Part shown: piece by piece, positions 57,471-57,905 of the stretch | Position numbering within the stretch: the first letter of the stretch is position 1 | Layout: every line of letters starts with the position of its first letter | Assembly (NCBI RefSeq): GCF_000422345.1 | Contig: NZ_AULP01000008.1 | Span: forward strand, 62,001 to 126,000 | Direction: 5' to 3' | Origin: Neomelitea salexigens DSM 19753 | GTDB lineage: Bacteria; Pseudomonadota; Gammaproteobacteria; Pseudomonadales; Spongiibacteraceae | DNA: 64,000 nucleotides | The notes under the pieces: model-generated | The model's input: only the letters and a program-made list of their open reading frames with translations | What the model was told of the DNA's origin: nothing | Database searches by the model: none | Position numbers and translations under genes: made by a program

Positions 57471-57499
57471 TTGACAAGGCCCGCATAAGTCAGGAAAAT
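57471..57499 (+). promoter_or_regulatory. tRNA-Met promoter with GC-rich discriminator
   Basis: TTGACA (57471-57476), 17-nt spacer, GAAAAT (57494-57499), directly followed by GCGCGCC. A GC-rich discriminator of this kind is characteristic of stringently controlled stable-RNA promoters. Confidence 0.7.
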
Positions 57500-57524: not shown

Positions 57525-57601
57525 GGCAAGGTAGCTCAGTTGGTTAGAGCACAACACTCATAATGTTGGGGTCGGCGGTTCGAATCCGCCCCTTGCTACC
57601 A
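57525..57601 (+). tRNA. tRNA-Met, elongator (anticodon CAT)
   Basis: 77 nt with encoded CCA. Acceptor GGCAAGG/CCTTGCT, D-arm GCTCAGTTGGTTAGAGC, anticodon CAT in ACTCATAAT, variable loop and T-arm GGCGG-TTCGAAT-CCGCC. The anticodon stem and D-arm resemble elongator tRNA-Met rather than the initiator or tRNA-Ile2. Confidence 0.95.
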
Positions 57602-57608
57602 TTATTCT

Positions 57609-57638
57609 AAAAAAACCACCTAAGCGGTGGTTTTTTTT
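57609..57638 (+). terminator. Terminator in tRNA-Met repeat unit 1
   Basis: AAACCACC (57613-57620), 5-nt loop, GGTGGTTT (57626-57633) and five further T. Confidence 0.85.
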
Positions 57639-57791
57639 CGCCTTCAATAAATGTGCCCAAGCTGCCGGGCGGGTGAGAAACGCCGCCGCGGTTCGATGAA
57701 ATGCGCTGCATTTCAGACGGCAACGCCGCCCGAAGGGGCAAAACAGGCCTTAGCCTGTTTTGATCCATCCGCCCCTTGCTACCATTATTCT

Positions 57792-57819
57792 AAAAAACCA
57801 CCCAAGCGGTGGTTTTTTT
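57792..57819 (+). terminator. Terminator in tRNA-Met repeat unit 2
   Basis: AAACCACC (57795-57802), loop CAAGC, GGTGGTTT (57808-57815) and four further T. It is a copy of the terminator in unit 1, with one loop change. Confidence 0.8.
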
Positions 57820-57905
57820 CGCCTTCAATAAATGCGCTCAAGCTGTCAAGCGGGTGAGAAACGCTGCCCAAAGGGACAAACAGCCCGCAGTCTGTTTCCG
57901 TATAT

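Follow-up and report, generated by a model that had tools for sequence, protein, structure and literature searches.

Behind the tRNA-Met gene of Neomelitea salexigens DSM 19753, the 3′ end of the tRNA is repeated a short distance downstream, and the question is what this repeated tail represents: a local accident, the trace of an inserted element, or a structured element akin to the 178-bp repeat of the E. coli tyrT operon, which has been an oddity since the late 1970s. The window, that is, the whole 64,000-nt stretch of DNA that was analyzed, was compared with related genomes. We find that the tail is probably a distant relative of RtT and one of many folded elements that lie behind tRNA genes of this order.

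The tRNA-Met locus and the fold of its tail

The last 18 nt of tRNA-Met, ATCCGCCCCTTGCTACCA, occupy positions 57584–57601 and recur at 57767–57784, a spacing of exactly 183 bp, as the original prediction had claimed. The same register runs on past the terminator into the conserved tail in both units, so each copy does have the terminator and conserved tail of its own that had been described (terminators at 57609–57637 and 57792–57819). At up to two mismatches, the last 17 nt of the tRNA are found in the window at just these two sites (chance mean 0.02). The two units are identical at 120/133 aligned bases, and the loss in unit 2, originally put at about 40 bp between short direct repeats, amounts to 43 bp; the two copies of a 9-bp direct repeat, AACGCCGCC, at 57679 and 57722, lie this same distance apart. 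This tandem two-unit arrangement exists at one place only in its own genome. An ordinary class A RNase P RNA (334.1 bits) lies elsewhere in the window, at 576–926.

A pattern search yielded 21 elements, of which 19 were aligned (A1) for a covariance model, R1, after two near-identical copies from genome G009 had been dropped. The features of the locus, all on the + strand, are as follows:

57471–57499, +, sigma-70-like promoter (TTGACA-17-GAAAAT) 5′ of tRNA-Met, a candidate by consensus only (10/12; the scan gave 2 sites in 761 bases versus 0.8 expected by chance)
57525–57601, +, tRNA-Met(CAT) (ARAGORN; Rfam tRNA 72.5 bits)
57609–57637, +, intrinsic terminator of unit 1 (12-bp stem, 12/12 complementary, with a T-run)
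57667–57684, +, 5′ edge, antisense copy of the tRNA T-arm/acceptor 3′ end (14/18 match)
57667–57675 with 57766–57774, +, closing helix P0, reaching into the copied tRNA tail (minimum-energy fold; run of 9 pairs)
57675–57770, +, RtT-like structured element, H1 followed by H2–H4 (model positions 1–108; R1 94.0 bits, E 4.7e-21, for a copy that was itself in the R1 training set)
57697–57715, +, hairpin H2, TGAAATGC-GCT-GCATTTCA (fold; helix 2 paired in 96.7% of cells, 92 distinct rows)
57718–57738, +, hairpins H3 (differs between copies; absent from the covariance model) and H3b, CCC-GAAG-GGG (fold; helix 3, which is H3b, paired in 85.9%)
57739–57762, +, hairpin H4, CAAAACAGGC-CTTA-GCCTGTTTTG (fold; helix 4 paired in 96.0%)
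57767–57784, +, exact second copy of the last 18 nt of tRNA-Met (sense tail)
57785–57905, +, decayed second unit, with 43 bp lost between the AACGCCGCC repeats (R1 20.3 bits, E 0.117)
57792–57819, +, intrinsic terminator of unit 2

The conserved tail is ~96 nt long and contains several hairpins. Within a unit, the sense 3′ end of the tRNA is followed by the trailer with its terminator, the antisense T-arm/acceptor, a GGTTCGA half T-arm, the hairpins, and once more the sense 3′ end of the tRNA. The window unit is predicted to fold into a multibranch loop whose closing helix reaches the copied tRNA tail, a fold also predicted for the rttR unit of E. coli; across the order, the mean run of P0 pairs was 5.01 versus 4.43 in shuffled sequences, a modest difference.

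In alignment A2, 92.8% of cells were paired and 22/23 pairs were changed on both sides. Cells changed on both sides numbered 242, compared to 77.8 after shuffling and no more than 34 in slid controls. Fitting A2 to the R1 structure favors pairing, and its related sequences are not independent. A third alignment, A3, comprising 14 tRNA-Met loci in 23 rows (22 distinct, a few of them from more distal parts of these loci; the G003 locus, L122, was excluded), contained 13 cells changed on both sides versus 1.9 in shuffled alignments. Template switching can also keep hairpins perfect at the DNA level. The number of G-U cells was 64 and that of A-C cells 34 (120.1 and 91.2 when shuffled), which may lean, weakly, to the sense strand functioning as RNA.

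Occurrence behind tRNA genes and relation to E. coli rtT

When searched with R1, 32/57 genomes, own genome included, gave 105 matches (E ≤ 0.001); in the own genome a single match passed, and the next best scored 23.1 bits and below. A second model, R2, was made from 93 matches from 71 sources, all of this order, with the weaker-hit loci L134, L177, L207, L213–L216, and L218 left out. It had matches in 91/293 genomes and 40/117 genera of the order (E ≤ 1e-5; E-values of home-made models are rough), and since searches spanning more than 40 genomes ran stricter filters, weak copies may be missed. A DNA search also returned similar elements behind tRNA-Ser, tRNA-Pro, and tRNA-Arg. The original prediction had looked to copies in related genomes and behind other tRNAs, and these counts (32/57 genomes; 91/293 of the order) supply them. 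The best match among 56 other genomes comes from G013, where a single unit and a single tRNA tail occupy this place; in relatives that retain the element behind the same tRNA-Met, the number of units ranges from one to five.

The position relative to tRNA genes was checked for 106 hits, namely the 105 R1 matches and one sub-threshold hit in the own genome. Ninety of the 106 follow a tRNA or a tRNA 3′ end. A same-strand tRNA lies within 110 nt upstream of 57 hits, and another 24 are additional copies or modules that follow such a tRNA; nine come after a tRNA 3′ fragment (one of them beside masked sequence in G019:C41 and one after a first-unit tail in G004), three are located at contig ends, and for 13 none was found. 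Several of these 13 are later array copies or lie 1.6–2.6 kb behind tRNA-Met (G019:C41, G011, G017, G016:C18), one has a tail with two mismatches (G004), and one is the sub-threshold hit. At 40 places across the order, taken from the best-scoring among the matches listed, 35 had a tRNA within 110 nt, one a fragment, one a contig end, and three none of these. First copies, 92 in 53 genomes, stand behind 18 tRNA kinds (Met, Arg, Ser, Val, Phe, Lys, Pro, Gln, Leu, and Asp). With 90/106 hits following a tRNA or tRNA 3′ end, the elements are not palindromes dispersed between unrelated genes as REP/BIME are. Readings as integron attC sites or as IS200/605 or TnpB guide RNAs, considered from the sequence, were dropped because the hits lie behind tRNAs.

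A terminator-like hairpin is present between tRNA and element at 80/92 sites versus 6/19 RtT sites of other orders. The element would therefore be made here only by read-through, and its transcript may be rare.

The resemblance to E. coli was assessed by applying R2 without filters to the tyrT locus of strain K-12 (L221). The four rtT units were the top four of 15 hits, with 21.3, 20.6, 20.3, and 15.6 bits, the next hit having 5.9; all four were full length and on the tRNA strand, with rough E-values of 5.9e-5 to 1.7e-3 for 3 kb. In 20 loci of other orders found with Rfam RtT (18 over the cut-off, L280 and L281 just under), R2 placed its best hit inside the RtT match at 19, with E < 0.01 at 16 of these and E 0.12 at the weakest; at L272 the best hit was displaced by about 80 nt and the second-best (E 0.26) lay inside. 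A tRNA (Tyr, Gln, or Ser) stands beside the 5′ end of the element in 19/20 of these loci. Because R2 ranks the E. coli units first and hits RtT in 19/20 loci, the likeness to E. coli rtT is probably homology.

The Rfam RtT model (RF00391) aligned over its full length (1–130) to 57652–57784 of the window, with 22.2 bits and E 0.026, short of the gathering cut-off of 45. It was found at cut-off in 0/40 loci of this order, and across the class it matched 60/276 genomes at E ≤ 0.01, 18 of them over the cut-off and none being the own genome; among 14 control genomes, E. coli was detected. Both in the window and in the family, the element lies behind a tRNA and ends in a copy of its 3′ end, and it shares motif order and helices with rtT under a model not trained on rtT. 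Features in common with RtT, tyrT, and RttR are the copy of the tRNA 3′ end at the unit end, tandem units of ~180 bp, an antisense 5′ edge, a closing helix, and the motif order GGATGAGAA..GGTTCGA..CCCGAAGGG..AATCC. The element differs from RtT of other orders in being usually preceded by a terminator and in standing behind tRNA-Met and many others, whereas the 19 other-order loci have Tyr, Gln, or Ser. We therefore assign it to RtT as a relative outside Rfam's present boundary and as a new, terminator-preceded variant. The original parallel with the E. coli tyrT/rtT units, including the duplicated CCA-bearing tail, is upheld, whereas the accompanying statement that the sequence is unrelated to rtT is not supported, given the ranking of the E. 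coli units and the full-length, sub-cut-off Rfam alignment. The RNA that had been expected to start at or near the CCA-bearing tail would, by E. coli precedent, end there: the 3′ end annotated for RttR coincides exactly with the copied CCA.

The E. coli tyrT repeat now becomes one branch of a large structured family that tends to copy its own tRNA in both senses, and its function becomes testable across many tRNAs and species rather than at a single locus. The members tested in this order escape Rfam's RtT model. Our literature search, which covered few subscription journals, returned no paper recognizable as a description of RtT-like elements in Pseudomonadales or of the antisense strand. A passage of one report mentions a tandem GA motif for RtT (PMC7657543).

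Another Rfam family, the Aggregatibacter sRNA AaHKsRNA22 (RF02902), aligned to 57686–57768, i.e., H2–H4, with 28.5 bits and E 9.4e-4, the window falling short of its gathering score of 39.8; across the class, 9/140 genomes matched at E ≤ 0.01 and none over the cut-off. AaHKsRNA22 may be the form that this element takes in the Pasteurellaceae. An RNA made from the element would resemble those from tRNA 3′ external transcribed spacers (sponges of the 3′ETS-leuZ type) in being left over from tRNA maturation.

Sense and antisense copies of the adjacent tRNA

Taken together, the elements match the tRNA that they follow, carrying its 3′ end in the tail and its antisense at the 5′ edge. The tail matched the own T-stem and acceptor at 10/12 positions or more in 39/92 sites compared to 0.4%, and the 3′ strand of the own T-stem was found in the 5′ arm at 38/92 sites compared to 1.3% for other T-stems. 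The T-loop letter of the element, readable at 82/92 sites, tracks the tRNA, being A in 4/4 readable TTCA tRNAs and G in 76/78 readable TTCG tRNAs. The whole 5-nt 5′ strand of the T-stem occurred in the first 30 nt of 1/57 elements, no more often than for foreign tRNAs, and the right arm scored 3.07 versus 2.41 of 5 against the own T-stem (54/57 sites). Apart from the T-loop letter, then, the sense T-half hardly goes beyond the general GGTTCGA. The tail was also considered as a strictly kept guide and rejected as such, being decayed (local score below 9) at 41/92 sites.

The antisense 5′ edge was compared with the 3′ end of the own tRNA at all 92 sites. The mean local score was 9.15 versus 6.54 for shuffled pairings (maximum of 500: 7.00), and the same edge compared to the sense strand of the tRNA gave 6.24. 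At 19 RtT sites of other orders, the antisense edge scored 12.74 versus 9.89 (maximum 11.00). The signal was stronger in the T5 part of the edge (6.28 versus 4.74 shuffled) than in the acceptor part (5.05 versus 4.00), was weak for Arg(ccg), Pro(ggg), and Leu(taa), and reached 19/22 positions in the best case (tRNA-Met of G011). In the window, the match at 57667–57684 is not unique when taken alone: with the tRNA itself excepted, a stretch near 2226 scores 12 versus 10.

The antisense strand was further compared with its two potential partners. At the 82/92 sites where this was done for the T5 part, the strand paired better with the tRNA in 68 and better with its own sense partner in 5. For the acceptor part, at the 41 sites with a decayed tail, it paired better with the tRNA in 25 and with its own sense copy in 6, while 10 were equal. 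Pure palindrome repair would not produce an antisense arm that is closer to the tRNA than to its own partner.

Readings of the element

We propose, with moderate confidence, that the locus is a tandem pair of RtT-like elements on tRNA-Met that gives a trailer RNA with a tRNA-like end, in which the sense and antisense copies close the structure. The anatomy, the covarying helices, the place behind tRNAs, the match to the own tRNA, the relation to E. coli rtT, and the mainly per-locus inheritance described below were shown computationally; that the element is a tRNA-trailer RNA is likely. RNA polymerase reading past the terminator would make the trailer RNA, the antisense strand of which would pair with the downstream sense copy in P0 and H1. 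The product would be compact, with a CCA end like that of a tRNA, and the enzymes that mature tRNAs would trim it, as suggested by where E. coli RttR is annotated to end. Alternatively, the antisense strand may pair with the T-arm of the newly made tRNA. Second units would most likely have arisen by tandem duplication across the short AATCC-T-stem homology of tRNA and element.

The main rival to the trailer-RNA reading, which we regard as a tentative possibility, is a DNA-level relic devoid of RNA function, in which hairpins are kept by template switching, likeness to the tRNA is kept by conversion with the neighboring gene, and tandem copies come from slippage. A terminator stands in front of 80/92 sites, and unit 2 has suffered its 43-bp deletion between direct repeats, both of which a relic would readily accommodate. 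So would the repetition of modules in some genomes: the H2–H4 part alone stands in tandem at spacings of 70–103 bp in G002, G006, G014, and G015, in some cases with modules ending in GATCA. Sites have also been lost in several species, G001 having no R1 match at all and G007, G008, and G016 keeping no more than remnants at the tRNA-Met site; the element is therefore dispensable. A 175-bp rtT VNTR is listed for Salmonella in one passage of a further report (PMC2658671). However, expression of RtT RNAs has been reported from other genera: a section of PMC4986893 describes them on northern blots in Actinobacillus pleuropneumoniae, giving their position as upstream of tRNA genes for Asn and Lys, and a section of PMC8092127 counts RtT among RNAs upregulated at low temperature in Thioalkalivibrio. 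The preference of the antisense arm for the tRNA over its own sense partner (68 versus 5 of 82 for T5, 25 versus 6 of 41 for the acceptor) also speaks against a relic, as does, weakly, the excess of G-U over A-C.

A bolder extension of the trailer-RNA reading, which we consider unlikely, is that RtT-like elements are class-wide self-targeting antisense switches directed against the T-arm/acceptor of their own tRNA, the order studied here being an unrecognized, terminator-gated branch. The copied sense strand would hold the antisense strand off; when the sense copy is occupied or missing, the antisense strand would invade the nascent tRNA and block its folding or 3′ maturation. If true, this would amount to tRNA-specific feedback on read-through transcripts.

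We judge it improbable that the element is mobile or integrative, with tRNA T-arms as its target and the duplicated tRNA ends as its attachment sites. The direct copy of a tRNA 3′ end, the presence of elements behind 18 tRNA kinds, the 9/106 hits preceded by a tRNA 3′ fragment (in most cases resembling the far end of an island), and gene-bearing stretches between tail copies in G010 and G017 are what such an element would produce. Unlike attachment-site duplications, the units described here have a conserved hairpin domain, an antisense copy, no genes, and per-locus inheritance; instead of a recombinase with cargo, the window has 165 bp between the two tRNA-tail copies, with no ORF of at least 80 aa. 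Inheritance was followed in 45 first copies from the genus and its sister genus, among which we saw no spread of copies within genomes. The nearest neighbor was of the same isotype in 33/45 versus 7.8 with labels shuffled, and mean identity was 0.633 when copies behind the same tRNA were compared across genomes, 0.553 for copies behind different tRNAs within one genome, and 0.540 for different tRNAs between genomes. The copies are therefore mainly inherited in place, which disfavors mobility as the main mode within the genus, and we infer that islands inserted beside elements already in place.

Highly improbable is a back-up terminator or read-through trap, whose hairpins would stop or degrade read-through transcripts. 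The hairpin array does come directly after a terminator, and a passage of PMC2965389 links rtT-like elements to BIME attenuators in Enterobacteria. Inside the element there is one weak terminator-like site (57735–57751; chance mean 0.7 per region), but its sole T-run is the TTTT of H4's own arm, and a trap would leave the tails and antisense edges that follow their own tRNA unexplained. A chance local duplication, in keeping with the two units at one place only in the own genome, has negligible probability and is refuted by the order-wide family.

Several insertions were noted beside the elements. Hits with a tRNA 3′ fragment and without a whole tRNA upstream (L166, L173, L195, L200, and others, up to 9/106) fit, as expected, an island inserted into the tRNA with the element pushed away. 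At L125 (G010), ~1.73 kb separates the second and third tRNA tails and contains two ORFs (149 and 139 aa), for which Pfam and PADLOC gave nothing at E ≤ 0.001. A serine resolvase fragment (PF00239) lies beside a distant element copy at L115:7431–7775 (G017), and resolvase-like remnants were seen by eye near copies in G010 and G016. An ISL3-family transposase (PF01610, 4.9e-58) is located inside an element array, between two copies, at L119:1083–2270 (G011), and similar end sequences interrupt or border copies in G003, G008, G012, G016, and G020; the elements may be a favored ISL3 target.
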